Part shown: positions 2,241 to 61,400 of the stretch, in pieces
Position numbering within the stretch: position 1 is the stretch's first letter
Layout of the letters: each line of letters begins with the position of its first letter
Assembly (NCBI GenBank): GCA_963965975.1
Contig: OZ014414.1
Span: 8,427,230-8,491,229, forward strand
Direction: 5' to 3'
Length of the DNA stretch: 64,000 nucleotides
DNA from: Xestospongia bergquistia
Lineage: Eukaryota; Porifera; Demospongiae; Haplosclerida; Petrosiidae
The notes under the pieces: generated by a model
What the model was told of the DNA's origin: nothing
Databases searched by the model: none
Seen by the model: only the letters and a program-made list of their open reading frames with translations
Translations under genes and position numbers: made by a program

Positions 2241-3444
2241 ATACTCTACTAGAACTGCATATATACAAGTACAAAGGAGTTAAAAATAGTGCTCCGCCCA
2301 CAAATAATAATTACAGGCGCCAAGTAACCAGCTGTTAGAGAGACAAAAAAGTGCGACGTTAGAGAAGTAAGTGTCAAGGAAAACTGCTCTATTTTTATTG
2401 TCTACTAGTTTTGTTAGAGAAATAAATTGTTAATAAAAGAAGATAAAAAAGTGAAGAGTAATTTAAAGAGAAAATAAAAGTGAACGAGAAGACAAATTAA
2501 GAATAAACAACAAACTACTTACTATTACATGAACACAAGTCTGTCTTTAATAACTTGATAACTGTCTAACTTCTTACAATACTCTTCATGTTGTATTGAT
2601 AAGTGTAGTTTCCTTATTGTAGTATTTTTATTAAGTGATGTACATATTGTCTTGATAACATCATTGCTCAGTGAAGTCTTGTAGAGATATAGTGTTGCCA
2701 ATGTAGTTGTTTGTATTAGATCTGCTATTGTACTGGTACTAACTGAAGTGATCTGACGATTACCTCCGATGTTCAACGTAGTCAATGTTTGGTTTTTAGT
2801 AAGTCCTTCACAGATATATCGGACTCCATTATCAGTGATGTTACAGTAGGAGAGATATAGTACTTTTAAAGTTGTATTACATGATAACATAGTAGATAAG
2901 TGAGTTATATCTTCATCTGTGATACCAGTAACATTAGACAACACTAACTGTTGAAGTGTTTTATTATTAAAGAGACTATCACTGACTTGTTTGATACCAC
3001 CAGTAAGTGAAGAGGACGACAGCCATAGTATCTTTATTGTTTTATTAGTTTTTAGTATCTCTGATAATATCGATACACACTTACTGTCCAATGAAGTGTT
3101 GTATATATTAAGACTCCTCACTGTACACTTATTAAGATTGTTTATAATAACTGCAGTACTTTCAGGAGATGATGAGAAGAGACTAATACTCCATTCTTTT
3201 CCTGTTTGTTGTTCTTTTATTAATTTACTTATAACATCTTCACTTTCTAATACACTTGGTCTAGTGAGTCTAACACTATTGTCATCGTCATCATCTCTCC
3301 AATGAACACTTCCAGTGTCTCCTGTTATAAAACAGAGTTAGTATATAATATAGTACACACATAGTAATATGTACTATAACACACTACAAATACACAGACA
3401 ACAAACTGAAGAAGAAAGGAAGCCATTATTGTTTACTGAATATA

Positions 3445-3480
3445 GTTACTATGGCAACGAGCTAATAGGAGGCGGGGCTT
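3445..3480 (-). promoter_or_regulatory. RFX X-box plus GC box upstream of G1 LRR exon
   Basis: On the minus strand a GC box (GCCCCGCCTCC) is followed by GTTGCCATAGTAAC, a near-perfect two-half-site RFX X-box, about 125 bases before the LRR exon acceptor. The pair recurs at 22953, 31237, 44026 and 59391. It could be an internal promoter or enhancer; no in-frame start codon joins it to the LRR exon. Confidence 0.45.
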
Positions 3481-3499
3481 ATTAACTCGTCAGTGGAAT

Positions 3500-7456: not shown

Positions 7457-9748
7457 CTGTAGTTACATGTGTGGACTCTCCTTGGCTAGATTTTGTTTGT
7501 GTTTCCTCAAGTCCTTGATTAGTTACTGCCTTTGGTCTGAATGTTAGATCTAGTAACAATGTCATATAATGAGAAGTCGACGTCACTAATACCAACTACC
7601 TTTTAAGCTCTGCCTTAATGTCTCAAACTGTTTGTTTCTCTCTCTTAATCGTAACATCAATGATGCTGTCACTTCCTGTAGTGTCTCCAACTCTTTTTGT
7701 CTCTCTGTAGACACTGACAGTAACTCTTCCTTAATAACTAAATAATTATTAATTATAATTATGTATTGATAAATCAGTAACACAGACTATGTTAGTGATA
7801 GCTATTGTATTAATAATACCTTCCTTCCATTTCAAATGTGATGTCAAATCTTTGATTGTTTTTTCTTTCATTTGTTTTCTTTCTACATAGAAACATTGAA
7901 TTTTAAATCAGATATATCATATAATAGACAGCTATTAAATAAACAGTGATTATTGACTACATGGACAAATACCTTCACTTTGTTGGACAATAGATGATAT
8001 TTGTAAAGTCATCTTTTTACTGATGGTTTGTCGTAGTTCAAGTTGACTTCTTAACTCCTTTGTGTTCTCTTCTACAATAGGTCTAACCTCCTATATATCA
8101 ATAAACAACACATGTAGTAACTGTTGTCTAATACTACTCATCTCTTACCTTGTCTCTTTGATGTTTATCATAAATGATGTCATAGCCTATTGTTAACTTG
8201 AGCAATTCCATCTCCTTCAATAAGTCAAGATTTTCATTTGCTGTCACTAATAGAATATCCATCATATGGTGTGGAGCATAGCAGGTAACAATGATAGAGT
8301 TGACTTCATTAATAACTCGAACTTGGACAGACTCTGCCATATCTTCAAAGGCTTTTGACAGCAAATCTTTAATGTGTTTGAGAGTATATTTGTCTACCTC
8401 CCACTCCAATACAAACTCAATTGTCTCACAGATGAGATGATGAGAATGTGAAACTAACTTGAAGTTCTGTTTAAGGCATATACTAACTTTGACATTTTCA
8501 CAAAAGGTAACAACTGCCATCTTGAATTCTGTGATGAGTAATTTAGCCTCAGTGATGTTGTAATAATCAACAACAAATTCCAAACAGCAAATATTAATAA
8601 TGGTACATTTATCTTGTACAAGATTAATGACATCATCAAATGATTTCGCTGTTGACAATTGAGGTCTTAGGCCCGGGAAACATCTCCAAAGATATCGTTT
8701 GAAATCTTTCAGTGAAGGAATACTAGTTTCAATAAGAGGTGCAACATTGTGAATTAGGGTTCCAAAGGTTGCTGTCATATGAACAAAATAGTGTTGGTAT
8801 GTCTGATGAAGTTTGATTTGGGAAGGAAATGTTTGATCTACAAAATATTAGTAGATTAAAGTAGTATAAAAATTACTTACCATACTCTTTGAGTATATCA
8901 TTAGCAACAGTTACTGTTTGTTCAGATTTCAATAAGATGCTACTGAATACCTTTAACATGTTGGGATCCTCAGATACTGTAGTACATAGTGCTCTCAGTG
9001 GACCATCTCCTAATACATATCCCAATCTTTTGACTTCATCTAATGTCTCCTTAGAGATCACTCTCTCTGTATATAACATCTGAACAATCTCTATAGGAAG
9101 TGCAAGTGATGAGATCCTATCAGAGTGTTTCTGTAACATTTGACAAGCTGGAAAGAGTTTAAAATAAATAATAAATATAAATATTATATATGTACTACTA
9201 ACACTAATTTATACCTGTATCCAAATCAAGTTTTTCATGTTTTTGTTCTAATTCCATTGTTTGAACATCTCATTTTCTCTTTCTTAAACTCGATATATCA
9301 GTGTCATCTATTAATCATATGACATACTATAAAATAATAATATTTACTTACTAAAGTCCTTTATTTTTTCAGCTGTAAAAACTTGCCCAATCTTTTCAAG
9401 AGCACTAGCTAGTGAGTCCAATGTAGCACCTCCACTCTTAGTAACATTGTCAGCATTACTTAACCACAGATTTAAACTCTCTTGAAGACAGTTCTCTGGA
9501 TCATCTCGGTACTTGGTTCTAATGCTTGACAGAGTAGGTTGTAGTAGACCCAGTTGTAGACCAAGAGGAGACCATCTATCATTTGGGAAGTAGCCTAGTT
9601 TCAAAGCGCCAATGATATCCTTTAAATCACTAACATCTAAAATAAACAATGTAAGATATAGAGCAACTCGAAATCTTTTTCTGTTAATATAAACTCACTT
9701 AGTTCACGCTGACTTGCAGCCATAGCTGGGAGGTCACTATGTAACTAA

Positions 9749-15109: not shown

Positions 15110-16416
15110 ACCTTTGTACTTAGTCTAGCTAATAAGAGAAAGGAGACGTAATAATTAATGTCTTCAATTATTTCAACTTACATCACATAATATTTCACCT
15201 CTACATCCAGTGATCTCATGTTTATTGCAGTTATAGTAACAGATAGTCTGGTAAGGCCTGCCCCTTTGCTTAGTGAGGAAGGGTTTGGTAGTCCATACTA
15301 ATAGTATAGTTGTCTCTTTCACTAGTCTATTGAGCTGACAAACCACATTGTTTTTATAGTGGGCGTGGCTGAAAACTGCTTTGATCTAAAAAAGTGCAGG
15401 ATCTACAAACAAGCATCATTAGATGTTTCATTCTGAAATATTGACTTCTTTGTCCTTTCTTGTTTTATTGTGTCACTTCATTTAGTCATGTTGAACTAAA
15501 CAAGTCTACATTTTGTTAAACTAGCTGCACGGTTGCACCATGTCTAAATTATGTTGCTATGGTAACTATTCATACTGGACACCTTAGTCTCATCCCCAGA
15601 CTACCAAGTAAACAGTAGTCTGTTACATTTGCTTCAAATTCTTGTTCCTAGTGTCATTAGTGTGACATGTTAACTCCATCTAATCATATATTAATGGTCA
15701 CATGACAAGTAGCTGATGGTCACATTACACATGGAGTTTGTGAGAAAAGAAGTCAGTAGATATCTTTAAGAAATACACAAACAGTTTGTTATATTAGTCA
15801 TTCTTGAGAGACATCATATTAAAGTAATGATGTGTTTTTCTACATGATCATATGATCACTGATGTCACACTGATGATATGAGGACCTAGAATTTGAATCA
15901 GATGCACCATGTACTATCTATTTATAATCCTCAAAATCAAAGTATTCAAAAATGTTTAGATCTATTATATTCAAAACTATTGTAGTTATCTGAAAGGACA
16001 ATGTGATTGAGGATCTGAGAAGGAACTATACCATATAGCCAATATGAATAAAACTTGATAAACAGTTTCAGATTTTGTTAAAATTTTATCATCAAAATAG
16101 TCTCAATGTAAATAGTGAAACAGTCACCACAATGTATCATTAAGAAAGGCTACATCTCTCTTATACACATACAATGTGGTTCTATCATAACAAGGTTATA
16201 ATGATATCATTATTACTTATGTCAACTATAGGTGGAGTCAACTAAGACACAGTCAAGTGTATTAATATTTGTCAGTAACAATATATGTAGTACTTAGTCT
16301 ATTTAGTTGCTATTCATGTCAATAAAGTTACATTATAAATAACAATACTTGTAGTGTATGTGTATTTTATTATATTATAATTTTAATAAACTAATATAAC
16401 ATTCACTGAGTCTTAC

Positions 16417-18981
16417 CTTCTTCGTCTGACTCTTCATCCTTTGTCTCTTTATCATCATAGTCCTTTAATATATCATGTAATACTGGAGACTCTATATAAG
16501 ATACTTATATTAAACATGTACATGTATATAGTGTAATATGATAACACTTAATATAAACATTTTATAGATCTTATCATAATCATAACTCTATCATATTATA
16601 CTGACACTAAGGGAGTGTATAGTAAATATACTAATTTATTTTTTATATATTATGAATTTAATTATTGTTGTTTGAGAATTATGAATATAATTTACACTAT
16701 AATAATTTGTGGTTACCTGTAGTTACATGTGTGGATTCTTCTTGGCTAGATTTTGTTTGTGTTTCCTCAAGTCCTTGATTAGTTACTGCCTTTGGTCTGA
16801 ATGTTAGATCTAGTAACAATGTCATATAATGAGAAGTCACTAATACCAACTACCTTTTAAGCTCTGCCTTAATACCTCAAACTGTTTGTTTCTCTCTCTT
16901 AATCGTAACATCAATGATGTTATCACTTCCTGTAGTGTCTCCAACTCTTTTTGTCTCTCTGCAGACACTGACAGTAACTCTTCCTTAATAACTAAATAAT
17001 TATTAATTATAATTATGTATTGATAAATCAGTAACACAGACTATGTTAGTGATAGCTATTGTATTAATAATACCTTCCTTCCATTTTAAAAGTGATGTCA
17101 AATCTTTGATTGTTTTTTCTTTCATTTCTTTTCTTTCTACATAAAAATATTGAATTTTAAATCAGATATATCATATTCATATAATAGACAGTTATTAAAT
17201 AAACAGTGATTATTGACATGGGCAAATACCTTCATTTTGTTGGACAACAGATGATATTTGTAAAGTCATCTTTTTACTGATGGTTTGTCGTAGTTCAAGT
17301 TGACTTCTCAATTCCTTTGTATTCTCTTCTACAATAGGTCTAACCTCCTATATATCAATAAACAACACATGTAGTAACTGTTGTCTAATACTACTCATCT
17401 CTTACCTTGTCTCTTTGATGTTTATCATAAATGATGTCATAGCCTATTGTTAACTTGAGCAATCCCATCTCCTTCAATAAGTCAAGATTTTCATTTGCTG
17501 TCACTAATATAATATCCATCATATGGTGTGGAGCATAGCAGGTAACAATGATAGAGTTGCCTTCATTAATAACTCTAACTTGAACAGACTCTGCCATATC
17601 TTCGAAAGCTTTTGACAGCAAATCTTTAATGTGTTTGAGAGTATATTTGTCTACCTCCCACTCCAATACAAACTCAATTGTCTCACAGATGAGATGATGA
17701 GAATGTGAAACTAACTTGAAGTTCTGTTTAAGGCATATACTAACTTTGACAGTTTCACAAAAAGTGTTAACTGTCATCTTGAATTCTGTGATGTGTGATT
17801 TAGCCTCAGTGATGTTGTAGTAATTAACAACGACCTCCAAATAGCAAATATTAATAATGGTACATTTATCTTGTACAAGATCCATGACATCATCAAATGA
17901 TTCAGCTATAGACAATTGAGCTCTTAGGTTTGGAAAACACCTCCGAAGATACATTTTGAGATCTTTCAGTGAAGGAATACCAGCTTCAATAAGAGGTGCA
18001 ACAGTGTGAATTAGGGTTCCAAAGGTTGCTGTCATTTGAACAAAATTGTATTGATATGTCCGATGAAGTTTGATTTTGGAAGGAAATGTTTGGTCTACAA
18101 AATATTAGTAGATGAAAATAATATTTAAAAATTGCTTACCATACTCTTTGAGTATATCATTAGCAACAGGTACTGTTTGTTCAGATTTCAATAAGATGCT
18201 ACTGAATACCTTTAACTTGTTGGGATCCTCATACACTGTAGTACATAGTGCTCTCAATGGACCATCTCCTAGTACACCTCCTAATCTATTGACTTCATCT
18301 AACGTCTCCTTAGATATTACTCTCTCTGTATATAACATCTGAACAATCTCCATAGGAAGTACAAGTGATGAGATCCTATCAGAGTGTTTCTGTAACATTT
18401 GACAAGCTGGAAAGAGTTTAAAATAAATAATAAATATTAATATTATATATGTACTACTAATGCTAATTTATACCTGTATCCAAATCAAGTTTTTCATGTT
18501 TTTGTTCTAATTCCATTGTTTGAACATCTCGTTTTCTCTTTCTTAAACTCAATATATCAGTGTCATCTATTAATCATATGACATACTATAAAATAATAAT
18601 ATTTACTTACTAAAGTCCTTTATTTTTTCAGCTGTAAAAACTTGCCCAATCTTTTCAAGAGCACTAGCTAGTGAGTCCAATGTAGCACCTCCACTCTTAG
18701 TAACATTGTCAGCATTACTTAACCACAGATTTAAACTCTCTTGAAGACAGTTCTCTGGATCATCTCGGTACTTGGTTCTAATGCTTGACAGAGTAGGTTG
18801 TAGTAGACCCAGTTGTAGACCAAGAGGAGACCATCTATCATTTGGGAAGTAGCCTAGTTTCAAAGCGCCAATGATATCCTTTAAATCACTAACATCTAAA
18901 ATAACAATGTAAGATATAGAGCAACTCGAAATCTTTTTCTGTTAATATAAACTCACTTAGTTCACGCTGACTTGCAGCCAT
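16417..18981 (-). CDS. G2: Death(A)-CARD-like-unknown domain-coiled coil gene lacking its LRR exon
   Basis: Exons 18957-18981, 18611-18895 (Death A), 18474-18566, 18140-18406 (CARD-like), 17406-18094 (230-residue domain), 17230-17347, 17074-17136 and 16854-16991 (coiled coil), 16717-16809 and 16417-16491 (acidic, LKDYDDKETKDEESDEE). All phases agree and no stop interrupts them. The protein sequence is the same as the front of G3 within the recent duplication. No LRR exon lies downstream: the sequence jumps near 15225 into older flank. Reading on past the last donor gives a stop after a few codons (GKTQ), so a receptor-less product of about 620 residues is possible. It may be a decoy or adaptor, or simply broken. 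Confidence 0.75.
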
Positions 18982-20532
18982 AGCTGGGAGGTCACTAGTT
19001 TAACTAAGGTGTGGTTACATTCCAGCAATATGAATATTGTTCTGTGTATATGAATAATATCATTTTGATATTAACAAATTATATTTTTCTTATTTGAAGT
19101 AAGAAATATTTTATAGTAGACGATGTTCTACAAAGATGGTAAAGTCTGTGTCATTATTCATCATTCATTTTTTTTTCACCACGCATTTTATTACTGGATC
19201 AATAAGTCAATGATACAACTTGTATTATACAAGGATTAGTTAAGTCAAGACTATTGTCTTGGACTATATATGCACGTACAAACTTGTATGGCTTTTGATA
19301 ACCATATTCTGAAGCAGATACAAACAAACTTTATAATGTGATAATGATGTACTGTGTAGTTTTAAGTACAATATATGACACAAAAATTCACATTAATTGA
19401 TAGGCTATAAACATTGTCATAAATACGTAATAACCACACTCATTAGGTCTGTACATTCACTTCATTGGACAACAGATGCTATTTGCATAACATGCATCTT
19501 TTTGCTCTTTTGGTCCTAAGATTGTTTTGGACTATATATACATTAACTGGATGTGTTTTCATGGTTTTTTAATGTATCTTTTGAAGTTGACAAATAGAAT
19601 TAAGGATGAAATAAGTTACATAAAGTAACTGCCAATGCACATAGCAACTATTGAATTTAATTACTGCTACAATGAGTGCTTTGAATTGATGAAGCTTATT
19701 TAAAGATAAAGTATATCATTAAACTATTATGACCATAATACAATACTAAATATCCTATTATATAAAACAGTGGTTATTTAAATTTCTAAATGTCATATAC
19801 AATAGACTTCATATATAAATGGGACTGGACAGTTATTTTTATAGTAGGTTCATATGAATTCTACAAATATTTACAATGTTAAAACCACACCCATATGATT
19901 TGTACCTTTACTTTGCTCCACAATATGACAAAAAGTTTAATAATAGTCGCTTTACTTACTTTAACATGACGTTAAATAATACCTTTAATGATATGTACAA
20001 AATCACTAGGTACTTCCCCTCTAACATTTCGTTGTCTTAGAGGTTATAGGTGACTAAATTTCTAATCTCCCCCTATAACAACAGCTTTACACATTTCCCT
20101 TAACACAGTGGTACTAAGGTCATGATCATAGTCTTGTAATTGAAGCAAGGCCATCCTTGCTAGTCTGGTCATTGGACTAACTTAAAAGTATACCACTAAC
20201 ATTATGTTATTGTAATGTTGTTATTTGTTTGACTAGTAGAATTACAGGTGTGTAAAACTTATTAATTGTTTCTACTTCTTAAGAATTTAAATATTTAGGA
20301 CCATCATGCAAATATGTTATCTGTGACTATTTGTATTATTGTCATTAATTTTATTAATGACAATATAAAATACCACAATACTACATAGGAATGTAATGTC
20401 TGCATAATTTTTCTTTCTCTCCTGGGTCCGGTGTTCTCAATTACATTATACATAATTATTTTGTAGGTAGCTATCAGTATGACTCAACAGACTATACTTT
20501 GAATATTTCCCTTTAGAGTACATTGGACAAGG
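18982..20532. other. intergenic spacer, copy of 9765-11243
   Basis: No intact gene. It carries the TEAD/RUNX-like site at 19009-19024 and a weak exon 6 relic near 19460. Confidence 0.4.
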
Positions 20533-20786
20533 GATGAGTATAACTATCTATTGTACCAGAGACCAGGCAGTGCTGTATTTAAAAAATAAAAATGTTGTGT
20601 TCATAAAATTGGGAAATTTGTCGTTGGTATCTCAAATCCTGATAACATTCCCAGAGAAGATCATAAAGTGTTTGTTATAATGGACTTTAGTGGTATATGT
20701 ACAGAAATACAAATCAAAGCTATAGGTACTCAGTTACTGGAAAAGAAGTTGAAGTTGTACGTGATTTTTTGAGTTATTTACAATGA
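20533..20786 (+). pseudogene. HSPA12-like 3' fragment
   Basis: Matches the end of the 11244-14150 gene (IYCTRDQAVLYLKNKN onward to the stop region) but joined directly to the sequence that precedes its first visible exon. The middle has been deleted. Small changes disturb the frame. Confidence 0.7.
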
Positions 20787-21564
20787 TGTTTTATTAACCT
20801 TTGTGTGTTGTTAATTCATTATATTTCAATATTAATTTTATAGTTCTTCTCAACAATCAACATCCCTTGGAATTCCTCATACTATACTATATTTGATTAT
20901 ACTTTATAAGTGATGTAACAATTGACATTGGACTATTGACTATAGCTTTTATACTTTAGCTTACACCTAATCAAGTGAATAGGCTCAAACTAGATTGTGT
21001 CCATGAAGAAGTACATAACTCATGATAAAGAGAGTGCTAATTTTATAGTAGAGTTAACACAGAGCATGTGATCCCTGTACAGTGAGCAGAGGCCATGTCA
21101 TCATGTTTTAATAATTATGATAATAAACAGTCCACTTTTGTTGTTTATATGTCAGTATAGTCCTTTAAAAATAATGTCAATAATCTTTTTTCAATGAATT
21201 TTTGTTTATAGATAAACTAATGTTATAACCACACCCACACAGTCTACACCTTGACTTTGTTGCACAATAGATGACATTTGCAAACCTTTGTACTTAGTCT
21301 AGCTAATAAGAGAGAGGAGACGTAATAATTAATGTCTTCAATTATTTCAACTTACATCACATAATATTTCACCTCCACATCCAGTGATCTCATGTCCATT
21401 ATACTGTATTCAGTTTAGTTCCTCTCTTATTATCAATAAAGTATCCAATCCTTTCTATAGGGATAACTACATTATTAATATATCAATGTAGTGTATAGGA
21501 CTAATAGAGTTGTCTATTAATATCATCTCACCATTTACTATGTGAGTGAGCAAACGTCTCTACT

Positions 21565-21747
21565 TCAGAAATATGTATTGTTGGACTTGAACAGTTGACA
21601 ATTTTCATTATTCAACTGAACTGATCTTATTATTATAGTTAAATTGTAGTCTTCAATATCTTCTGAATATAAGATAGACCATGATGACTTCTTTAGTTTG
21701 TTAGAAAATGGGATACAAGTACGTTCCTTACTGCATGACGTCTTCAT
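21565..21747 (-). other. short ORF downstream of G3 LRR exon
   Basis: Copy of the 60-codon ORF at 2058-2240, same length and stop; possible 3' UTR exon. Confidence 0.3.
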
Positions 21748-22033
21748 ATACTCTACTAGAACTGCATATATACAAGTACAAAGGAGTTAAAAATAGTGCT
21801 CCGCCCACAAATAATAATTACAGGCGCCAAGTGACCAGCTGTTGCCAGTTAGAGAGACAAAAAAAGTGCAACATTAGAGAAGTGTCAAGCAAAAATGCTC
21901 TATTTTTATTGTTCTACTAGTTTTGTTAGAGAAAGAAATTGTTAATAAAAGAAGATAAAAAAGTGAAGAGTAATTTAAAGAGAAAATAAAAGTGAGCGAG
22001 AAGACAAATTAAGAATAAACAACAAACTACTTA

Positions 22034-27270: not shown

Positions 27271-28821
27271 AGCTGGGAGGTCACTAGTTTAACTAAGGTG
27301 TGGTTACATTCCAGCAATATGAATATTGTTCTGTGTATATGAATAATATCATTTTGATATTAACAAATTATATTTTTCTTATTTGAAGTAAGAAATATTT
27401 TATAGTAGACGATGTTCTACAAAGATGGTAAAATCTGTGTCATTATTCATCATTCATTTTTTTTTCACCACGCATTTTATTACTGGATCAATAAGTCAAT
27501 GATACAACTTGTATTATACAAGGATTAGTTAAGTCAAGACTATTGTCTTGGACTATATATGCACGTACAAACTTGTATGGCTTTTGATAACCATATTCTG
27601 AAGCAGATACAAACAAACTTTATAATGTGATAATGATGTACTGTGTAGTTTTAAGTACAATATATGACACAAAAATTCACATTAATTGATAGGCTATAAA
27701 CATTGTCATAAATACGTAATAACCACACTCATTAGGTCTGTACATTCACTTCATTGGACAACAGATGCTATTTGCATAACATGCATCTTTTTGCTCTTTT
27801 GGTCCTAAGATTGTTTTGGACTATATATACATTAACTGGATGTGTTTTCATGGTTTTTTAATGTATCTTTTGAAGTTGACAAATAGAATTAAGGATGAAA
27901 TAAGTTACACAAAGTAACTGCCAATGCACATAGCAACTATTGAATTTAATTACTGCTACAATGAGTGCTTTGAATTGATGAAGCTTATTTAAAGATAAAG
28001 TATATCATTAAACTATTATGACCATAATACAATACTAAATATCCTATTATATAAAACAGTGGTTATTTAAATTTCTAAATGTCATATACAATAGACTTCA
28101 TATATAAATGGGACTGGACAGTTATTTTTATAGTAGGTTCATATGAATTCTACAAATATTTACAATGTTAAAACCACACCCATATGATTTGTACCTTTAC
28201 TTTGCTCCACAATATGACAAAAAGTTTAATAATAGTAGCTTTACTTACTTTAACATGACGTTAAATAATACCTTTAATGATATGTACAAAATCACTAGGT
28301 ACTTCCCCTCTAACATTTCGTTGTCTTAGAGGTTATAGGTGACTAAATTTCTAATCTCCCCCTATAACAACAGCTTTACACATTTCCCTTAACACAGTGG
28401 TACTAAGGTCATGATCATAGTCTTGTAATTGAAGCGAGGCCATCCTTGCTAGTCTGGTCATTGGACTAACTTAAAAGTATACCACTAACATTATGTTATT
28501 GTAATGTTGTTATTTGTTTGACTAGTAGAATTACAGGTGTGTAAAACTTATTAATTGTTTCTACTTCTTAAGAATTTAAATATTTAGGACCATCATGCAA
28601 ATATGTTATCTGTGACTATTTGTATTATTGTCATTAATTTTATTAATGACAATATAAAATACCACAATACTACATAGGAATGTAATGTCTGCATAATTTT
28701 TCTTTCTCTCCTGGGTCCGGTGTTCTCAATTACATTATACATAATTATTTTGTAGGTAGCTATCAGTATGACTCAACAGACTATACTTTGAATATTTCCC
28801 TTTAGAGTACATTGGACAAGG
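27271..28821. other. intergenic spacer, copy of 18982-20532
   Basis: No intact gene. It carries the TEAD/RUNX-like site at 27298-27313. Confidence 0.4.
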
Positions 28822-29853: not shown

Positions 29854-30036
29854 TCAGAAATATGTATTGTTGGACTTGAACAGTTGACAATTTTCATTAT
29901 TCAACTGAACTGATCTTATTATTATAGTTAAATTGTAGTCTTCAATCTCTTTTGAATATAAGATAGACCATGATGACTTCTTTAGTTTGTTAGAAAATAG
30001 GATACAAGTACGTTCCTTACTGCATGACGTCTTCAT
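29854..30036 (-). other. short ORF downstream of G4 LRR exon
   Basis: Copy of the 60-codon ORF at 2058-2240; possible 3' UTR exon. Confidence 0.3.
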
Positions 30037-43109: not shown

Positions 43110-46100
43110 TTACCAGAACACAAGTCTGTCTTTAATAACTTGATAACTATCTAACTTCTTACAATACTCGTTATGTTGTCTTGATAAGACTAGTTCCCTT
43201 ATTGTAGTATTTTTATTAAGTGATGTACATATTGTCTTGATATCATCATTGTTCAATGAAGTATCGTAGAGATATAGTCTTGTCAATGATGTAGTTGTTT
43301 GTATTAGATCTGCTATTGTACTGGTACTAACTGAAGTGATCTGATAATTATGTCCGATGTCCAACTCAGTCAATGTTTGGTTTTTAGTAAGTCCTTCACA
43401 GATATATTGGACTCCATTATTAGTGATGTTACAGTTGTAGAGTTCTAGTACTTTTAAAGTTGTATTACTTGATAACATAGTAGATAAGTGAGTTATATCT
43501 TCATCTGTGATACCAGTAACATAACACAACACTAACTCTTCAAGTGTTTTATTATTAAAGAGACTATCACTGACTTGTTTGATACCACCAGTAAGTGAAG
43601 AGGAGTACAGCTCTAGTCTCTTTATTGTTTTATTAGTTTTTAGTATCTCTGATAATATCGATACAAACTTACTGTCCAATGAAGTGTAGTCTATATCAAG
43701 TTTCCTCACTGTACACTTATTAAGATTGTTTATAATAACTGCAGTACTTTTAGGAGATGATGACCAGAGAGTAATACTCCATTCTTTTCCTGTTTGTTGT
43801 TCTTTTATTAATTTACTTATAACATCTTCACTTTGTAATACACTTGGTCTATCGAGGCATACACTATTGATATCATCTCTCCACACAACACTTCCAGTGT
43901 CTCCTGTTATAAAACAGAGTTAGTATATAATATAGTACACACATAGTAATATATACTATAACACACTACAATACACAGACAATACACTGAAGAAGAAAGG
44001 AAGCCATTATTGTTTACTGAATATAGTTACTATGGCAACGAGCTAATAGGAGGCGAGGCTTATTACTCGTCAGTGGAATCATAGATAGTATAGACTACGT
44101 AACCGGGATTGGAAACGCCCACGCACTTCCGGTACACTCCTTGTCCATCTCAACCTACAAGCATAAAAATGCGCGTAAACTATGGCTTACTCTGCTCCTG
44201 TTCCTTCTGAAATGAGTATGTAGAATTTTTGGAATTTTTACTTTAATGAAGTGTTACTTTATATTAAATATTTTAAATAAATATTAAGTATTTATAATAA
44301 TAAATATTATTTACATTATAATTTACTGATAATGTTAGGTAACAGTCACAGTAATACAGAAGTCTTTTTGCAAGTACTACAAGGAGCTCTTTCAGATGAA
44401 GGTTTCAAAATTGATACACCAGTTGCTACACAAGCGTTACATAGTGCAACCCTACTGTTTAAATGGTGCTCTAGGCCTGAAAACACGGAGATTGTATCAA
44501 CTTTTGCAACTAGCTTAATAAATGATCTGTCATCTGCTCTTGAACAAGATAATTGTAAGAATATGACAACAAAAAGGGAGAGAGTGTGGGGAAGATATCA
44601 TGACATCAGGACATCAGAGCACTTTAAGTCTACATGGTGTAGTTTCATTCAAGCATCGATTGGTTGCTCAAGCAATCCCATTTTGTATCAATACATTACT
44701 GATCAAATATTTCGTGGGATAATTATCCAGGTCACCGGTGCTAGTTCCATCAAAAGTTGTCATTATGACCATCAATTAGATCTAACATATGAAGAGAAAA
44801 ATGCATTAAGATACGTAGGTGGTTATGTTTGTAAAAAACTTCAAAAAAAATTTCAATCAACTATCAAATATCTTATTACAGATGAATCAGATGAATCAGA
44901 TGTTGGTGAGTCAAGCGAATGGATGACAATGATTGATAGGGGAGGTCTTGTTCACATTAAAGAACCCACCTACAAGCTCTTTGAAGCAATAGAAATGGCT
45001 GTAAGATGTAAACTTAAAACTGATCATCAGAAGCTAGACATATTGATGTTAAAATCATGTATCCTGAACAATGATGATGTTTTGGACTGTTGGAGATCGT
45101 TAGGAGTTGATGAGGATATTTCTGAGCCGTCACTTTTAGAACAAATGAGTGACCTATGGATAAAGATTAGAGGCTTCTCCTATGCTAGTTCTTTTATGGA
45201 GCTGTACAAACAACATACTAAAAAGTCCCTTCAACGAGCTAAGCCATTAAGAAAAGGTGTAAATAAATGATTACAATATATATATATAATATGAAAATGT
45301 ATATATATATAAATGTTGTTTACTGTAATAAATATAAGTAATTATTTGTCATGGTACAATGCCAAATTGTTGTTTTCTTCTTCTTTTGGGAAGAGGTAAA
45401 CTTTCCTTCTCAAAATCTAAGGACCTTTTTGATGAATTTCCTCTGCAGTTTCCTTTAATTGGATCTCTGCAAAAAGTATTAATTACCCTAAGGGCTTGAG
45501 TACCATTGCAGAACTCTTGTACATTTGGATTTTCACTTGTTCTACATCTCTGCCTTTGGCATCCGAAAAACTTTTCAATAGGATCTTGTGAAAGGTTCTC
45601 ACTTAGAAAGGTTTTAACGCCTGGTATTGTAAACATATATCGTGTCAAATCCACAAACGATTTTACTGCAGGTGCATTGAATATTTTCAATTTCATGAAA
45701 ATATGATACATACAGTAATGACATACCTGTTATCATTAGTCCAGTTCTTGTCTCAGAACTTAGTAGCATCCTCTTCTTTTCTTCATTAGTAAAACCAGAT
45801 CTTTCTTTCACTGATTTTTCCCATTCTTCAAGATATTTTATGAAAACTTCTTCTAACCACTGTTAAATATAAACTTTCTTTAATGTAAAATGTTAAATAT
45901 ACTTCAAGTCTGAAGTCAGTAGCAGAGCGATAAGGATCTCTGAAACACTTTCTCTGAAACTTTCCACTATCATAATTGCGAACATTCAAGCAGTCAAAAA
46001 ATTTATCAAACATATCACAAAACAAGGCTGTTTCAGTTGCCTGTGGACACAGCTATTCTAATTACCTTCAATAATTGATCATTAACATCACCAAGAGATA

Positions 46101-49100: not shown

Positions 49101-52100
49101 TATCTTACATAAATATGACAGGAGATTGCCAAAGTAAATAATAACAAGCTAAACCAACATAGAAATCTTTTGTCTTTAGATGAGAAGTTGTAATTTTTGT
49201 CTACATAACTTTAAAAAATGGCTATAGTCCCAAAAGTGTACCTATATCTTATGTTGTTTTAGTGTTTTCCATAAGAATAGCGCGACTTTACTAGCATAAA
49301 AACAGTCTAAACCAATGTATTCTTATTTGTTCTAAATAATTTGTCCTAAACCTTTTAGTGGTAACATTGCTGTAAGAAGAAAGAGCGACAAAAGTATTTT
49401 TAGTGACATTTTCATCGAAAAATAACTAATTTAAAAGTGAATGTCAGTATTATTAACTATTTTAATAATAGAATATAAAGAAGAATATATTGTCAATGTG
49501 TTGATAAATAAAAATAACACTAATGTCTTTGTAGAGTAATACAATACAGGTAAGAGTGTGTCTAGTTTACAATGTAAGGTAATAAAAATTAATTGATTTT
49601 TTTGGACACGGAGTGCGTTTTCAAATGTTCATTCAGTTCTATGGGATCACGTGATCCGTTTCCAATCCCGGTTACGTAGTCTATAGTATCTATGGTGGAA
49701 TTTACTGAGATACTTCTTAAATTACTATCTTTACTCTTAGTTGGTTTTAAGGTCTAGCTACAGTAAGTCATGTTGTCTAGCACACATGTACTTTTCTTGC
49801 TAATAGTAAGTGAAATGTGTAAAGTTCATTTGATAATAGTTGTCAATAGGTAAAGAATAGAGACTGAAATGAACAGTTTGAATTGTCTTGTCTTGTGTGG
49901 TCTAATGTTACTGTAATATCAGGTGACACAAGACTACAATGTCTTTATAATATGTATTGTAAACATTATTACATTCTATTTCAATGAGTTCAGAATTGAG
50001 TTGATATGTTTTGTTACATGAGGAAATTATGTATCTCTCTACCTACTAATGTTGTACACAGGAATGGTCTAAATGTTTGGTGGGTGTGGTTAAGTACAGT
50101 AACTATATTGAGCAGTACATGTTAATAGATATAAACAAAAGTAGAAGGAATTACAAATAAAATGAGTTATCAATTGATTTGACTCTTTCCTTGATATATT
50201 AAATCATTTTAATTTGTGAATTAATTGCAGTTATAGTAACAGATAGTCTGGTAAGGCCAGCCCCTTTGCTTAGAGAGGAAGGGTTTGGTAGTCCACACTA
50301 TAGTACAGTTGTCTCTTTCACTAGTCTATTGAGCTGACAAACCACATTGTTTTTATAGTGGGCGTGGCTGAAAACTGCTTTGATCTAAAAAAGTGCAGGA
50401 TCTACAAACAAGCATCATTAGATGTTTCATTCTGAAATATTGACTTCTTTGTCCTTTCTTGTTTTATTGTGTTACAATAATCCTTCATTTAGTCATCTTG
50501 AACTAAACAAGTCTACATTCTGTTAAACTAGCTGTCATACTTGCACCATGTCTAAATTATGTTGCTATGGCAACTATTCATACTGGACACCTTAGTCTCA
50601 TCCCCAGACTACCAAGTAAAAAGGTAGTCTGTTACATTTGCTTCAAATTCTTGTTCCTAGTGTCATTAGTGTGACATGTTAACTCCATCCAATCATATAT
50701 TAATGGTCACATGACAAGTAGCTGATGGTCACATTACAAATGGAGTTTGTGAGAAAAGAAGTCAGTAGATATCTTTAAGAAATACACAAACAGATTGTTA
50801 TATTAGTCATTCTTGAGAGACATCAAATTATAGCAATGATGTATTTTTCCACAAGATCATATGATCACTGATGTCACACTGATAATACTAGCACTAAGAA
50901 TTTGAATCAGATGCACCATGCACTATCTATTTATAATCCTCAAAATCAAAGTATTCAAAAATTTTTAGATCTATTATATTCAAAACTATTGTAGTTATCT
51001 GAAAGGACAATGTGTTTGAGGATCTGAGAAGGAACTATACCATATAACAATATGAATAAAACTTGACAAACAGTTTCAGATTTTGTTAAAATGTTATCAT
51101 CAAAATAGTCTCAATGTAAATAGTGAAACAGTCACCACAATGTATCATTAAGGAAGGCTACATCTCTCTCAAGAATAGTTATAATAACATCATTATTGCT
51201 TATGTCAACTATAGGTGGAGTCAACCAAGACACAGTCAGTGTGTTAATATTTGTCATTGTGTAGTAGTTATATTATATTATTACCTGTAGTTTTATATGT
51301 GGACTCTTCTTGACTGGATTTTGTTTGTGTTTCCTCAAGTCCTTGATCAGTTACTGGTTTATGAGTCTTTGATATGAATGCTAGATCTAGTAACAATGTC
51401 ATATAATGAGAAGTCACTAATACCAACTACCTTTTAAGCTCTGCATTAATGCTTCAAACTGTTTGTTTCTCTCTCTTAATCGTAATGTCAATGAAGTTAT
51501 CACTTCCTGTAGTGTCTCCAACTCTTTTTGTCTCTCTGTAGACACTGACAGTAACTCTTCCTTAATAACTAAATAATTATTAATTATAATTATGTATTGA
51601 TAAATCAGTAACACAGACTATGTTAGTGATAGCTATTGTATTAATAATACCTTCCTTCCATTTTAAAAGTGATGTCAAATCTTTGATTGTTTTTTCTTTC
51701 ATTTGTTTTCTTTCTACACAGAAACATTGAATTTTAAATCAGATATATCATATAATAAACAGCTATTAAATAAACAGTGATTATTGACTACATGGACAAA
51801 TACCTTCACTTTGTTGGACAACAAATGATATTTGTAAAGTCATCTTTTTACTGATGGTTTGTCGTAGTTCAAGTTGACTTCTCAACTCTTTTGTCTTCTC
51901 TTCTACAATAGGTCTAACCTCCTATATATCAATAAACAACACATGTAGTAACTGTTGTCTAATACTACTCATCTCTTACCTTGTCTCTTTGACATTTGTC
52001 ATAAATAGTGTGGTAACCTATTGTTAACTTGATCACACCCATCTGCTTCAACAAATCAAGATTTTCTTTTGCTGTCATCAACAAAAGGTCAGTTAGACTT

Positions 52101-53566
52101 TGTGGAGCATAGCAGGTAACAATGATGGAGTCGCCTTCATTTACTGCTTTAACTTGTACTGACTTTGCCATACCTTTGTACGCTTTTGACAGCAATCGTC
52201 TAATGTCAGTAAGAGAATATTTGTTAGCCTCCCACTCAAGAACAAACACAATACTTTCACAGGTAAGCAGATAAGATGAAGAGTTTGTAAAGCTTTGATT
52301 ACAACATATATCAGCTTTGATCTTCTCACAAAATTCATCAACTGATGTGTTGTAGTTTGTAATATGTACTTTAGCTTCTGTAATGTCATATTGATCAACA
52401 ATACCCTCTAAACAGCAAATGTTAATAATGGTACATTTGTCTTGTACAATCTCCATGACATCATTAAAAGACTCAGCTATTGTTAACCGAGGTCTTAGCT
52501 CTCTGAAACACATCTGAAGATATGTTTTAAGGTCTTCCAGTGAAGGGATACCCTTAGCAATAAGAGGAGCAACAGTGTAAAAAAGTTTACCAAATTTCAT
52601 TCTCATTTGATCAAAATCATATTGAAAAGTAGGTTGGAGATTGATTTGAAAGGGAAAAGTTTGATCTATAAATAAAACATTATTATAACTTGTAGATATA
52701 TATATAGTGGTACTTACTGTACTCTTTGAGTATATCTTTAGCAACAGGTACTGTTTGTTCAGATTTTAATAAGACACTTGTAAAAACCTTAAATTTTCTA
52801 GGATCTCCAGACACTGTAGTACATAGTGCTCTCAATGGACCATCTCCTAGTACACCTCCCAATCTATTGACTTCATCTAATGTCTCCTTAGAGATCACTC
52901 TCTCTGTATATAACATCTGAACAATCTCCATAGGAAGTGCAAGAGAAGAGATTCTATCAGAGTGTTTCTGTAACATTTGAGAAGCTGGAATGGATAAAAG
53001 TTCAAAATAAATAATAAATATTAATATGATATGTGTACTATTAATTAACATTAATTTATACCTATGTCCAAATCAAGTTTTTCATGTTTTTGTTCTAATT
53101 CCTCCTTCTTATCGTCTTGTTTTCTCTTTCTTAAACTTGGTATGCCAATGTCATCTATTAATTATTTATATTTTATTAGATCTAATAAACACAATGTTCT
53201 AATTACCTCTAGTTAAGTGTTTGTGTATTTCAGTAGCTTTATTGATATTATTAACAACAGGACTCTTAATAGCATCAATCACTGTTTCCCAGGTAACAAG
53301 ATGTGACTCAGTAGTAGTTAACCAGTTCTCAATGACTTGATCAAGTTTGTAAATATTACTTAACTGACTACTTGTTAAACCATTTAAAAGATTCTGAGAA
53401 ACTTCAAATGACAAACCAATCTCATACCACTTGTCATTAATATCAGCTAATAGCTTTAGTAGTTCATATTTAGTAGGAGAAATACCTGAGAAATAAAAAA
53501 TTAAAGATAAATTTAAAATAATAAGAACTATTTTATCAAGTCTTATATCTCACGTTGTTGTTCCAT
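43110..53566 (-). CDS. G5: Death(B)-CARD-like-unknown domain-coiled coil-LRR receptor-like protein, 850 aa
   Basis: Exons 53554-53566 (MEQQ), 53207-53485, 53062-53154, 52718-52984, 51980-52665, 51804-51921, 51651-51713, 51431-51568, 51285-51386 and 43110-43903. They total 2553 nt, 851 codons with no internal stop. The unknown domain is the most divergent in the array (DICCNQSFTNSSS, YAPQSLTDLLL) and one codon shorter. The linker reads SLRKRKQDDKKEE. There is no acidic exon. The last intron is about 7.4 kb because three P-like elements sit in it. Upstream of the start the conserved TEAD/RUNX-like site is absent, and the flank carries a transposase-like fragment instead. The LRR exon has its own set of strand residues. 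Role inferred as for G3. Confidence 0.85.
44026..44039 (-). promoter_or_regulatory. RFX X-box-like site upstream of G5 LRR exon
   Basis: GTTGCCATAGTAAC on the minus strand, as in G1; the adjacent GC box has one change. Confidence 0.4.
44182..45270 (+). CDS. transposon-encoded protein of unknown function (ALRYVGGYVCKK family), 321 aa
   Basis: Two exons: 44182-44215 (MAYSAPVPSEM; donor GTATGT) and 44339-45270. They join in phase 1 to give 322 codons. Visible blocks: ATLLFKWCSRPENTEIVSTF, RERVWGRYHDIRTSEHFKST, EKNALRYVGGYVCKKLQKKF, WMTMIDRGGLVHIKEPTYKL and LWIKIRGFSYASSFMELYKQ, with a basic tail. I recall similar uncharacterised proteins from cnidarian and sponge genomes with the same blocks. 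It has no DDE triad that I can see. Its place inside the inverted ends makes it an accessory gene of the transposon. Function unknown. The frame looks intact. Confidence 0.7.
45349..47190 (-). pseudogene. P-element/THAP9-like transposase, internally deleted
   Basis: Exons 46915-47190, 46066-46868, 45903-46040, 45727-45859 and 45349-45665 stay in frame (about 555 codons). The family is shown by RTLRDYTHYIKA, GILIDEMHIKEDLVYDKHTG with the first catalytic Asp, FDKFFDCLNVRN, and near the end QDPIEKFFGCQRQR. Between GDVNDQLLK and ATETALFC the family has about 300 residues with the rest of the RNase H core. Here they are replaced by a 25-nt stretch (46041-46065) bounded by GT and AG. A zinc-finger-like CNYC lies in NRCNYCTKYRD. 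I found no THAP C2CH domain upstream. The protein cannot be a complete transposase. Confidence 0.8.
48086..48463. mobile_element. P-like miniature element, 378 bp
   Basis: Both ends of the family in reverse orientation to the large copy, almost no interior. Preceded by GTGGAAT (48079-48085). Confidence 0.8.
48465..49694. mobile_element. P-like non-autonomous element, 1.23 kb
   Basis: Same orientation as the large copy. The left tip has lost its first two bases and the GTGGAAT separator; the right tip is followed by GTGGAAT at 49695-49701. It has the same internal deletion junction as elements L and R. Confidence 0.8.
49702..51284. other. proximal part of last intron of G5
   Basis: Conserved intron sequence without exons. 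X-box-like GTTGCTATGGCAAC at 50561-50574. The region of the acidic exon is deleted near 51245. Confidence 0.5.
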
Positions 53567-57054: not shown

Positions 57055-57259
57055 TAAAAATGATCAATTTTGTGTTCATAAAATTGGGAAACTTGTCATT
57101 GATATCTCAAATACTGATAACATTCCCAGAGAAGATCATAAAGTGTTTGTTATAATGGACTTTAGTGGTATACGTACAGAAATACAAGTCAAAGCTAGGT
57201 ACTCAGTTACTGGAAAAGAAGTTGAAGTTGTATGTGATTTTTTGAGTTATTTACAATGA
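57055..57259 (+). pseudogene. HSPA12-like 3' fragment
   Basis: Last about 67 codons of the HSPA12-like gene, frame still open to the TGA; no 5' part. Confidence 0.75.
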
Positions 57260-58471
57260 TGTTTTATTAACCTTTGTGTGTTGTTAATTCATTATATTTC
57301 AATATTAATTTTATAGTTCTTCTCAACAATCAACATCCCTTGGAATTCCTCATACTATACTATATTTGATTATACTTTATAAGTGATGTAACAATTGACA
57401 TTGGACTATTGACTATAGCTTTTATACTTTAACTTACACCTAATCAAGTGAATAGGCTCAAACTAGATTGTGTCCATGAAGAAGTATGTAACTCATGATA
57501 AAGAGAGTGCTAATTTTATAGTAGAGTTAACACAGAGCATGTGATCCCTGTACAGTGAGCAGAGGCCATGTCATCATGTTTTAATAATTATGATAATAAA
57601 CAGTGCACTTTTGTTGTTTATATGTCAGTATAGTCCTTTAAAAATAATGTCAATAATCTTTTTTCAATGAATTTTTGTTTATAGATAAACTAATGTTATA
57701 ACCACACCCACACAGTCTACACCTTGACTTTGTTGCACTAGCTAATAAGAGAGCGGAGATGTAATAATTAATGTCTTCAATTATTTTAACTTACATCACA
57801 TAATATTTCACCTCCACATCTAGTGATCTCATGTCCATTATACTGTATAAAGGTTTAGTTCCTCTCTTATTATCAATAAAGTATCCAATCCTTTCTATAG
57901 GGATAACTACATTATTAATATATCAATGTAGTGTATAGGACTAATAGAGTTGTCTATTAATATCATCTCACCATTTACTATGTGAGTGAGCAAACGTCTC
58001 TACTTCAGAAATATGTATTGTTGGACTTGAACAGTTGACAATTTTCATTATTCAACTGAACTGATCTCATTATTATAGTTAAATTGTAGTCTTCAATATC
58101 TTCTGAATATAAGATAGACCATGATGACTTCTTTAGTTTGTTAGAAAATGGGATACAAGTACGTTCCTTACTGCATGACGTCTTCAGATACTCTACTAGA
58201 ACTGCATATATACAAGTACAAAGGAGTTAAAAATAGTGCTCCGCCCACAATAATAATTACAGGCGCCAAGTGACCAGCTGTTAGAGAGACAAAAAAGTGC
58301 GACGTTAGAGAAGTAAGTGTCAAGCAAAACTGCTCTATTTTTATTGTCTACTAGTTTTGTTAGAGAAATAAATTGTTAATAAAAAAAGATATAAAAAGTG
58401 AAGAGTAATTTAAAGAGAAAATAAAAGTGAGCGAGAAGACAAATTAAGAATAAACAACAAACTACTTACTA
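57260..58471. other. 3' flank of G6
   Basis: Conserved array flank. The downstream 60-codon ORF of other units is present at about 58025-58207 but its ATG is changed to CTG. Confidence 0.4.
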
Positions 58472-61400
58472 TTATACGAACACAAGTCTGTCTTTAATAA
58501 CTTGATAACTGTCTAACTTCTTACAATACTCTCTATGTTGTATTGATAAGCGTAGTTTCCTTATTGTAGTATTTTTATTAAGTGATGTACATATTGTCTT
58601 GATATCATCATTGTTTAGTGAAGTATAGTTGAGATATAGTTCTGTCAATGATGTAGTTGTTTGTATTAGATCTGCTATTGTACTGGTACTAACTGAAGTG
58701 ATCTGATGATTACCTCCGATGTCCAACGTAGTCAATGTTTGGTTTTTAGTAAGTCCTTCACAGATATATCGGACTCCATTATCAGTGATGTTACAGTAGG
58801 AGAGACGTAGTCCTTTTAAAGTTGTATTACTTGATAACATAGTAGATAAGTGAGTTATATCTTCATCTGTGATATCAGTAACAAAACACAACATTAACTG
58901 TTCAAGTGTTTTATTATTAAAGAGACTATCACTGACTTGTTTGATACCACCAGTAAGTGAAGAGTATGACAGCTGTAGTATCTTTATTGTTTTATTAGTT
59001 TTTAGTATCTCTGATAATATCGATACACACTTACTGTCCAATGAAGTGTTGTATGTATAAAGGCTCCACACTGTAAACTTATTAAGATTGTTTATAATAA
59101 CTGCAGTACTTTCAGGAGATGATGACCAGAGATGAATACTCCATTCTTTTCCTGTTTGTTGTTCTTTTATTAATTTACTTATAACATCTTCACTTTGTAA
59201 TACACTTGGACTAGTGAGACTAACAATATTGTCATCATCTCTCCACTGAACTCTTCCAGTGTCTCCTGTTATAAAACAGAGTTAGTATATAGTATAGTAC
59301 AGTACACATAGTAATATATACTATAACACACTACAATACACAGACAATACACTGAAGAAGAAAGGAAGCCATTACTGTTTACTGACTTCGGTTACTATGG
59401 CAACGAATTGCAGGAGGCGGGGCTTACTAATTATCTGTCAGTGGAATTTACTGAGATGTTTCTTACCATTACTCTTAGTTGGTTTTAAGGTCTAGCTACA
59501 GTAAGTCATGTTGTCTAGAACACATATACTTTTCTTGCTAATAGTAAGTGAAATTTGTAAAGTTCATTTGATAATAGTTGTCAATAGGTAAAGAATAGAG
59601 ACTGAAATGAACAGTCTGAGTTGTCTTGTCTTGTGTGGTCCAATGTTACTGTAATATCAGGTGACACAAGACTACATTGTCTTTATAATATGTATTGTAA
59701 ACATTATTACATTCTATTTCATTGAGTCCAGAATTGAGTTGATATGTTTTGTTACATGAGGAAATTATGTATCTACTAATGTTGTACATAGGAATGCTCT
59801 CTTGTCACAAAAATGCTTGGTGGGTGTGGTTAAGTACAGTATCTATATTGAGCAGTACATGTTAATAGATATAAACAAAAGTAGAATGAATTACAAATAA
59901 AATGAATTATCAATTGATTTGACTCTTTCCTTGATATATTAAATCATTTTAATTTGTGAATTTATTGCAGTTATAGTAACAGATAGTCTGGTATGGCCAG
60001 CCCCTTTACTTAGAGAGGAAGGGTTTGTTAGTCCATACTAATAGTACACTTGTCTCTTTCACTAGCACAACCACAGTCTATTGAACTTGTATCTGACAAA
60101 CCACATTGTTTTTATAGTGGGTGTGGCCGAAAACTGCTTTGATCTATAAACTAAATGTCTCATTCTGAAATATTGACTTCTTTGTCCTTTCTTGTTTTAT
60201 TGTATTACAATATCTTTCATTTAGTCATATTGATTTAACTCAATTAAAAAGATTCATTGTAGTCTCATAAACCAACTCAAGAGAAAGAGGCTGCAGCTGA
60301 GTTGATTATTGATATTAATATATTATAATAAAATTAACCACATTCTTTACATAAATATGTGTGTGCTACAAGATCCTTCCTCAAAGAGGCTGACTTGACC
60401 ATACTATATATGGTACTATATTATCAAATATTAATAATATTAACTTTTTGAAAATATGTACTTGTCAGTTAAAATAATTGACAATGAAGATCAAATTGTA
60501 ATCATCTTTGTAATATTTATGTTCTATATGCTTAAAGAATATGAGTTTAATATGGAAGACATTTCTCTACTTGAACTAATCAAGTTTGCATTTTGTTAAA
60601 CTAGCTGTCATACTTGCACCATGTCTAAATTATGTTGCTATGGTAACTATTCATACTGGACACTGAGTTTTAATAGTCTCGTCCCCAGACTACCAAGTAA
60701 AAAGGTAGTCTGTTGTATTTGCTTCAAATTCTTGTTCCTAGTGTCATTAGTGTGACATGTTAACTCCATCCAATCATATATTAATGGTCACATGACAAGT
60801 AGCTGATAGTCACATTACACATAGAGTTTGTGAGAAAAGAAGTCAGTAATAGAAAATCATGATAATTCTGAGACTAAATACTACCATTTCTGATGATATA
60901 GTTATTACAATTATGAAGTTTGTATATGAAATCATAAGATTAAAACCAAGCAATAATCAACTACAGATTATAACAAAATTATAACTACCTATTACTAGAA
61001 CAAGAGATATATTTAAGAAATACGCTAACAAGTTTGTTATATTAGTCATTCCTGGGAGACATAGTAATATGATGTGTTTTTCCATATGATCATATGATCA
61101 TTGATGTCACACTGATGATACTAGGACTAAGAATTTGAATCAAATACATCAGACTACTTATTTATAATCCTCAAAACCACAGTATTCAAAATTGTTTAGA
61201 TCTATTATATTCAAAACCATTATAGTTATCTGAAAGGACATTGTGATTGAGGATCTGAGAAGGAACTATACCATATAGCCAATATGAATAAAACTTGACA
61301 AACAGTTTCAGATTTTGCTAAAATGTTATCATCAAAATAGTCTCATTGTAAATAGTGAGACAGTCACCACAAAGTATCATTAAGGAATACCACATCTCTC

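Follow-up and report, generated by a model that had tools for sequence, protein, structure and literature searches.

A large germline family of leucine-rich repeat exons with diversified residues on the predicted concave face

Five gene copies (G1, G3, G4, G5 and G6) in the window, a 64,000-nt stretch of contig C4 (positions 8427230–8491229), carry leucine-rich repeat (LRR) exons on the minus strand. How can such exons share one scaffold and yet differ in nearly every copy at one set of residues? An earlier note on this DNA had claimed that the copies vary almost only at the exposed strand positions, and had attributed this to diversifying selection or cassette conversion. The strand 1 and strand 3 peptides quoted there were correct and all five exons are open; the backbone motifs called almost fixed were so apart from single exceptions (KFVSIL in G5, no exact DDIKTICTSL in G1, QTTI in G3). 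Among these five exons the nonsynonymous divergence (dN) of strand sites was 0.41 and the synonymous divergence (dS) of the whole exon 0.032. The explanation that we consider probable, from sequence comparison, is a germline recognition family lacking a NACHT domain, in which recombination keeps the LRR-bearing 3′ part of the genes young and selection diversifies about 34 concave strand positions.

The genome, one haploid assembly of 146.5 Mb in 21 contigs, was searched with the G3 LRR exon protein, and at least 146 matches were obtained at E ≤ 1e-5, a lower bound with 144 of 457 first-look candidates scored. No internal stop was present in 133 of the 146 and one or more in the other 13; 59 of the matches listed lay at 8.43–9.64 Mb of C4 (9.83 Mb). 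DNA of 90 loci and the window yielded 87 intact exons, L001 (identical to the window copy) and L016, L025, L031, L040, L043, L046 and L085 (stops or broken pieces) being left out. A near set comprised the 72 exons with at least 80% amino-acid identity to G3. The G3 LRR exon was used as numbering reference (codon 1 = 22846–22844, descending); it ends in a stop codon, and a likely acceptor with good branch-point and acceptor sequence was predicted at ...TATACTAACTCTGTTTTATAACAG/GAGACACTGG, so the exon proper would start near 22830.

Two pairs of loci, L008/L009 and L067/L068 (C4 ~8.78 and 8.85 Mb), had identical exons spaced by the same 73,989 bp; either a segment was duplicated very recently or the assembly contains one haplotype twice. 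The LRR exon proteins P0059, P0113, P0004, P0005, P0028, P0069, P0096, P0100 and P0109 lie on public contigs with the same listed lengths (637759 for the first two, 944083 for the rest) as contigs that carry exact copies of exons of this genome, including window exons, yet none of the nine matched any of the 87 exons exactly. For P0059 the best genome match was 93%. Mismatches of this type hint at possible haplotype or assembly differences.

In the near set the backbone was nearly fixed and 34 positions were hypervariable. When 35 strand sites were preset from the repeat motif alone (offsets 1, 2, 4, 6 and 7 of seven repeats), their mean entropy was 1.57 bits versus 0.30 bits at the 233 other sites (Mann-Whitney p = 1.8e-15), and their dN and dS were 0.385 and 0.110 versus 0.029 and 0.049 (dN/dS 0.60) in the other 146 LRR codons. 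Variation was thus concentrated where the earlier note had placed it. Because the exons recombine (see below), counting methods were used rather than a tree-based site test, and by these methods the exposed strand residues were under positive selection. The claim that the x residues of LxxLxLxx vary was borne out at offsets 2, 4, 6 and 7 (dN/dS 3.1–7.0) but not at the first x (0.94). The contrast was weakest in repeat 3 (1.50 versus 1.34 outside its strand), and the cap strands (residues 12–23 and 50–52), absent from the earlier list, were also variable.

LRRs of the ribonuclease inhibitor (RI) and nucleotide-binding LRR receptor (NLR) type have repeats of ~28 residues; their strands run parallel along the concave side, and the helices lie on the outer one. 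An AlphaFold2 model of the LRR exon built from 53 sequences had this fold (predicted local distance difference test, pLDDT, 94.7; predicted template-modelling score, pTM, 0.91) and grouped with ribonuclease inhibitor, NLRP3, NOD2 and other NLR LRRs in Foldseek and VIA-align 2 comparisons. Mean entropy was 1.10 bits on modelled strands, 0.21 on helices and 0.39 elsewhere, and the 34 hypervariable sites fell 25 on strands, 2 on helices and 7 on other parts. Since alternating strand residues of the predicted fold face the concave side, the hypervariable positions likely form the concave, and likely the binding, face. Their residue composition was skewed to Y, R, W and H.

Synonymous change within the hypervariable codons themselves was scored as C/T in NNY and A/G in NNR codons (ATA, ATG and TGG excluded) in 65 exons left after near-duplicate removal. 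Third-base synonymous transitions separated 0.051 of pairs (confidence interval 0.030–0.077), 3.6 times fewer than the 0.181 separated by transitions at the first two positions of these codons; for transversions at the first two positions the value was 0.254. A mutator blind to codons would raise both, so the quiet third bases favour selection over blind hypermutation. Synonymous diversity was 0.051 in hypervariable codons, 0.046 within three codons of them and 0.016 farther away (permutation p 0.0005 each). We read this as hypervariable alleles older than the pool average, as under balancing selection with recombination; a locally higher mutation rate would leave the same picture. The strand dN far above dS, the quiet third bases, the alike introns described next and the position of the sites on modelled strands together support the proposed diversifying selection at the concave face.

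The neighbouring intron had been described as nearly unchanged. This held once insertions were allowed for, the main upstream intron pieces of the window genes being 1.5–5.2% apart and smaller or outer pieces reaching 6–11%; in G1 and G5 the pieces are displaced by ~2.7 and ~5.6 kb of inserted sequence, respectively. The 5.6-kb insert in G5 holds weak (44281–45270, plus strand, Tnp_P_element_C 0.0028) and moderate (46033–46878, minus strand, TNP-like RNaseH 2e-06) matches to P-element-like transposases. Flanks of 34 loci (561 pairs) were compared by local alignment. Of the 1.4 kb preceding the exon, the median alignable length was 407 bp at 6.2% mismatch (235 pairs below 250 bp), and of the 1.2 kb following it 299 bp at 5.4% (202 pairs below 250 bp). 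Divergence of the alignable flanks was thus about that of synonymous sites in the exon (dS 0.064), much of the remaining flank being inserted or unrelated. A shared unit made of the exon alone with 100–200 bp was considered and rejected, as the local alignments showed that insertions had passed for divergence.

Thirty near-set locus pairs, overlapping and mostly from one group of nine loci, could be aligned over 600 bp or more of the intron before the exon with no more than 2% mismatch. In 27 of them 17–29 of the 34 hypervariable residues differed, along with 3–10 synonymous and 6–19 nonsynonymous changes in other codons; the remaining three were the identical L008/L009, L020/L023 (7 hypervariable differences) and L013/L019 (none). 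Over the 140 pairs with at least 600 bp, intron mismatch was correlated neither with hypervariable difference (Spearman 0.04) nor with synonymous difference at other codons (−0.02), suggesting that exon variants have passed from one intron background to another.

Farther upstream in these genes lies an exon that we call 'VDQTFP', and it is much older than the 3′ part. In ten window gene pairs dS was 0.018–0.050 in the LRR exon and 0.131–0.745 in the VDQTFP exon, 3–28 times higher. BLAST pieces over the LRR exon and preceding intron were mostly 2–5% apart; those over the VDQTFP exon were 10–14% apart in seven pairs, 6.4% in G4/G6 and 3.7% in G1/G3, and G3/G4 gave one piece at 4.9%. Beyond the 3′ part of G3 (Table 1) similarity falls towards the coiled-coil and VDQTFP exons. 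Among the matches listed, 29 genes with 77–89% LRR identity to G3, their exons paired by eye, had VDQTFP identities of 41–88% (Spearman 0.22, p 0.25). Adding 17 listed genes with LRR identities of 52–75% and VDQTFP identities of 49–70% gave 0.27 (p 0.07); these lie mostly outside the C4 cluster, and both exons there are about equally diverged.

Some pairs and shared variants also point to exchange between paralogues within the exon. In the tandem duplication that holds G3 and G4, mismatches rise from ~21.6 kb, ~250–450 bp from the LRR exon; the two LRR exons differ in 43 codons, 38 of them nonsynonymously, and at 19 of 34 hypervariable sites, with the preceding intron 1.5% apart. The exons of L052/L055 and L082/L086 are 4 and 5 nt apart, closer than their introns (3.6% and 2.7%). 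The flanks of L020/L023 align without mismatch (one with an indel) and their exons differ only in codons 72–106, a block at least 104 bp long. Simple descent seems enough for L013/L019 and L070/L073, in which no hypervariable residue has changed. Ten synonymous variants were each present in at least 5 of 65 exons, where a star tree predicts 0.26. In the 72-exon set 13 such variants gave 78 pairs, and 56 of these had all four combinations, indicating that the exons have recombined. Segregating sites more than one codon apart were near linkage equilibrium in 70 distinct exons (squared correlation 0.017–0.028 versus 0.0145 under independence, slightly raised in the 3–10 bp class). This independence of the hypervariable residues may come from recombination, repeated substitution or both.

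The course of events that we propose would be as follows. A large germline family, probably of intracellular receptors, would combine a Death-type domain, a VDQTFP domain, a coiled coil and a terminal exon for an LRR horseshoe. Recombination or gene conversion would keep the 3′ part around the LRR exon young and alike across genes whose 5′ exons are old, and would mix LRR exon variants among genes, while selection would favour new and different residues at the ~34 concave strand positions. The outcome would be a germline array of differing binding surfaces on one scaffold.

Several observations weigh against this proposal. The copies were picked by similarity to one exon, which biases towards a conserved backbone. 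To offset the bias of the near-set filter, the contrast was repeated in 53 aligned exons in three identity groups, and it persisted; mean pairwise differences at hypervariable and other sites were 0.68 and 0.08 (19 exons, at least 80%), 0.73 and 0.23 (12 exons, 70–80%) and 0.80 and 0.36 (22 exons, 50–70%). Of the 34 sites varying most, the second group shared 23 and the third 22 with the near-set list. It is not only the exon that is young: its intron and the sequence downstream belong to the young part as well. In L013/L019, L070/L073, L082/L086 and L052/L055 only 2 of 26 changed codons were hypervariable (~3.3 expected, the choice of pairs with low exon distance biasing the count), and L013/L019 keeps all 34 hypervariable residues with introns 1.3% apart; fast hypervariable change is thus absent from some lineages. 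A PHI-like (pairwise homoplasy index) test for spatial clustering of incompatible sites gave no signal. A search of the assembly for donors of the L020 and L023 blocks found none (best non-self matches 95% and 93%, with 40 of 145 and 40 of 141 candidates scored), and for this pair we therefore infer the conversion.

A bolder form of the proposal, which we regard as possible but doubtful, is that the LRR exons would make up one freely recombining pool in which any backbone may carry any residue at the ~34 paratope positions, whose summed site entropy is ~70 bits. They would then be a germline combinatorial library on NACHT-less Death-type receptors, strongly differing between individuals and serving, for example, allorecognition or symbiont discrimination.

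Point mutation of the usual kind, with exposed strand sites under strong positive selection, on young 3′ parts but with no continuing exchange between exons, would account for the strand excess, the quiet third bases, the alike introns and, through saturation, the independence of sites. It is nevertheless unlikely, as recombination is already needed to join a young 3′ part to old 5′ exons, and the shared synonymous variants, their four combinations, the exons closer than their introns and the replaced L020/L023 block all point to exchange within the exon.

We think it quite improbable that a dedicated mutator, such as a diversity-generating retroelement or a deaminase-like process, hits the strand codons in the germline with selection playing a minor part. 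The near independence of hypervariable residues even a few codons apart, the ~3-fold rise of synonymous diversity in and within three codons of these sites, and the 17 nt changed within 104 bp of L020/L023 between unchanged aligned flanks would fit such a process. The scarcity of third-base transitions, the few hypervariable changes in the four close pairs and the lack of any synonymous change in the L020/L023 block argue against it. Adenine-targeted mutagenesis, as at the target of a diversity-generating retroelement, was rejected because third-position A is fixed at sites 101, 214, 242 and 247 (one codon excepted) while neighbouring bases vary; neither a reverse transcriptase nor a template was searched for.

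A system in which whole strand cassettes are shuffled, somatically as in lamprey or by frequent germline conversion, and alone make the diversity is very unlikely. The replaced L020/L023 block would fit it, and so would runs of 10 and 11 hypervariable residues shared by L067/L030 and L058/L034 (~0.5 expected). Apart from these two pairs, however, the longest shared runs in the 65 exons were close to those of column-shuffled data, no donor for the L020/L023 block was found among the candidates scored, and the exons without internal stops, 133 of 146, need no assembly. As a present source of diversity, long cassette sharing was accordingly rejected, run lengths and rare-allele sharing resembling shuffled columns apart from a slight excess within 5 codons (ratios 1.20 and 1.10) and the two long runs. 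Of the suggested cassette conversion there remains exchange between paralogues, mainly keeping the 3′ part young, with one replaced block of ~100 bp.

Neutral drift of unconstrained x positions beside a backbone under purifying selection is scarcely tenable: LRR backbones are structurally constrained and exposed residues usually freer, but a strand dN 3.5 times the dS of the same codons, ~8 times that of other repeat codons and far above the 5–6% median mismatch of alignable flanks, together with the skewed residue composition, cannot be so explained.

On the minus strand, the LRR exon of each gene copy comes after a VDQTFP exon, and Death-type frames lie farther upstream (Table 1). A Death-superfamily domain was detected in the frame upstream of G3. 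The CARD-like frame that follows it gave no Death or CARD match and no family match of note in profile searches, and the Death-like frame upstream of G4 gave no Pfam Death or CARD match, only hits of 15–18 residues to designed solenoid proteins. Short coiled-coil-like frames lie between the VDQTFP and LRR exons in both genes read (G3 and G4). From their order and strand, which fit one gene, we take the Death, VDQTFP, coiled-coil and LRR exons to form one transcript.

Table 1. Features of the window discussed in the text
Feature	Coordinates	Strand	Basis or remark
LRR exon of G1	2525..3337	-	open frame, family alignment, fold; 7 RI-type repeats and N-terminal cap strands; stop codon at end
LRR exon of G3	22034..22846	-	open frame; PF13516 LRR_6 match 3.6e-07
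LRR exon of G4	30318..31130	-	open frame
LRR exon of G5	43110..43919	-	open frame and Pfam scan
LRR exon of G6	58472..59281	-	open frame and Pfam scan
3′ part of G3 (downstream sequence, LRR exon, preceding intron)	21215..24563	-	1–5% from other window genes
Tandem duplication, left copy	16001..21600		period 8289 bp, 5 mismatches in 5600 bp
Tandem duplication, right copy	24290..29889		period 8289 bp
'VDQTFP' exon of G1	8134..8847	-	~237 aa, no assigned domain family
'VDQTFP' exon of G2	17391..18104	-	G2 copy without LRR exon
'VDQTFP' exon of G3	25680..26393	-	protein identical to that of G2
'VDQTFP' exon of G4	34001..34738	-	open frame
'VDQTFP' exon of G5	51965..52765	-	open frame
'VDQTFP' exon of G6	62219..62956	-	open frame
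Three short coiled-coil-like frames between VDQTFP and LRR exons of G3	25132..25636	-	by eye
Frame between Death and VDQTFP exons of G3	26397..26756	-	CARD-like by eye only
Death-domain frame upstream of G3	26895..27230	-	PF00531 7e-08
Death-domain frame upstream of G2	18606..18941	-	translation identical to 26895–27230
Death-like frame upstream of G4	35229..35546	-	by eye only

The VDQTFP exon had no Pfam or NCBIfam match, and its sequence hits in PDB, at E 0.004 or worse, were to a ribosomal protein. Its model was of lower quality (pLDDT 68.2, pTM 0.47), and the fold matches listed reached template-modelling scores of at most 0.31 on the query side. Many VDQTFP exons at ~50–60% identity were located at C3:10.56–10.72 Mb and other places on C3 and C2, where LRR was absent among the matches listed; this suggests that the domain is also used in other architectures. 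G2 has the Death, CARD-like and VDQTFP frames and no LRR exon; sequence like 1378–1888 there joins sequence like 6751–7266 at 15221, as if a deletion had removed the exon. A 281-aa open frame without a Pfam match (13305–14150, plus strand) adjoins it. A scan of the window against Rfam gave nothing above curated thresholds.

No NACHT domain was found in the window exons scanned against Pfam. A six-frame search of the whole genome with PF05729 gave 95 matches (103 of 156 candidates scored), none of them on C4 beyond 8.34 Mb, where the window lies. NACHT frames were clustered at C2:8.8–9.15 Mb, C10:4.6–6.05 Mb, C11:0.42–0.47 Mb and C4:7.97–8.33 Mb, a second large receptor family separate from the LRR cluster.

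Among known systems, the variable lymphocyte receptors (VLRs) of lamprey and hagfish also have hypervariable residues on concave LRR strands; their germline genes are incomplete and assembled somatically, unlike the complete germline exons of this family. The earlier comparison with VLRs is therefore apt for the principle of the fold only, and that with plant NLRs fits the mode of evolution. Gene conversion among tandem paralogues with positive selection at exposed LRR residues has reportedly been seen in the plant nucleotide-binding site (NBS)-LRR cluster RPP8. Coffee SH3, with 3–5 coiled-coil (CC)-NBS-LRR genes per genome, shows gene conversion between tandem paralogues, and the solvent-exposed residues of their LRRs are under positive selection (PMC3113787). 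Paralogue exchange and selection at exposed residues are thus shared with such clusters; unlike SH3, the present family has more than 100 LRR exons, no nucleotide-binding domain was found in the locus, and the ages of 5′ and 3′ exons differ widely.

Zebrafish NLR-B30.2 genes, nearly 400 and most on one chromosome arm, undergo gene conversion that acts on single domains and differs by exon, and a positively selected recognition exon is common to groups that differ in other exons (PMC4852459). Exon-specific exchange and a selected recognition exon are likenesses to that family; here, however, the shared part is the LRR exon with surrounding sequence, and NACHT was not found in the locus. The Podospora het-d/het-e family has 10 genes with WD40 repeats reshuffled as units, possibly helped by repeat-induced point mutation (RIP), in concerted evolution within and between genes, with four diversifying interaction-surface codons per repeat (PMC1805685). 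Seven fixed LRRs in one exon, varying residue by residue, set the present family apart from these genes. Sponge NLR repertoires, e.g. that of Dysidea avara, include large Death/CARD and LRR gene expansions of the NACHT-LRR type; the term 'positive selection' is absent from the main text of that source (PMC12909245). The present family resembles them in its large Death and LRR expansion, and differs in that the NACHT matches of this genome lie outside the LRR cluster. An LRR exon as the shared recognition part, the absence of NACHT and a large dS gap between exons of one gene thus differ from these known systems, and no description of a hypervariable NACHT-less Death-LRR family in sponges was found in the open-licence literature.

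The concave face would bind the ligand, and the receptors may recognise microbes or non-self and act upstream of Death-fold signalling. Should the host be an early-branching animal, the solution of plant NLRs, one scaffold with a hypervariable LRR face and exchange between paralogues, would have been reached there without NACHT and with more than 100 intact LRR exons. The family would offer a system for studying specific invertebrate recognition without antibodies, the 34 positions being candidates for ligand binding and for differences between individuals.

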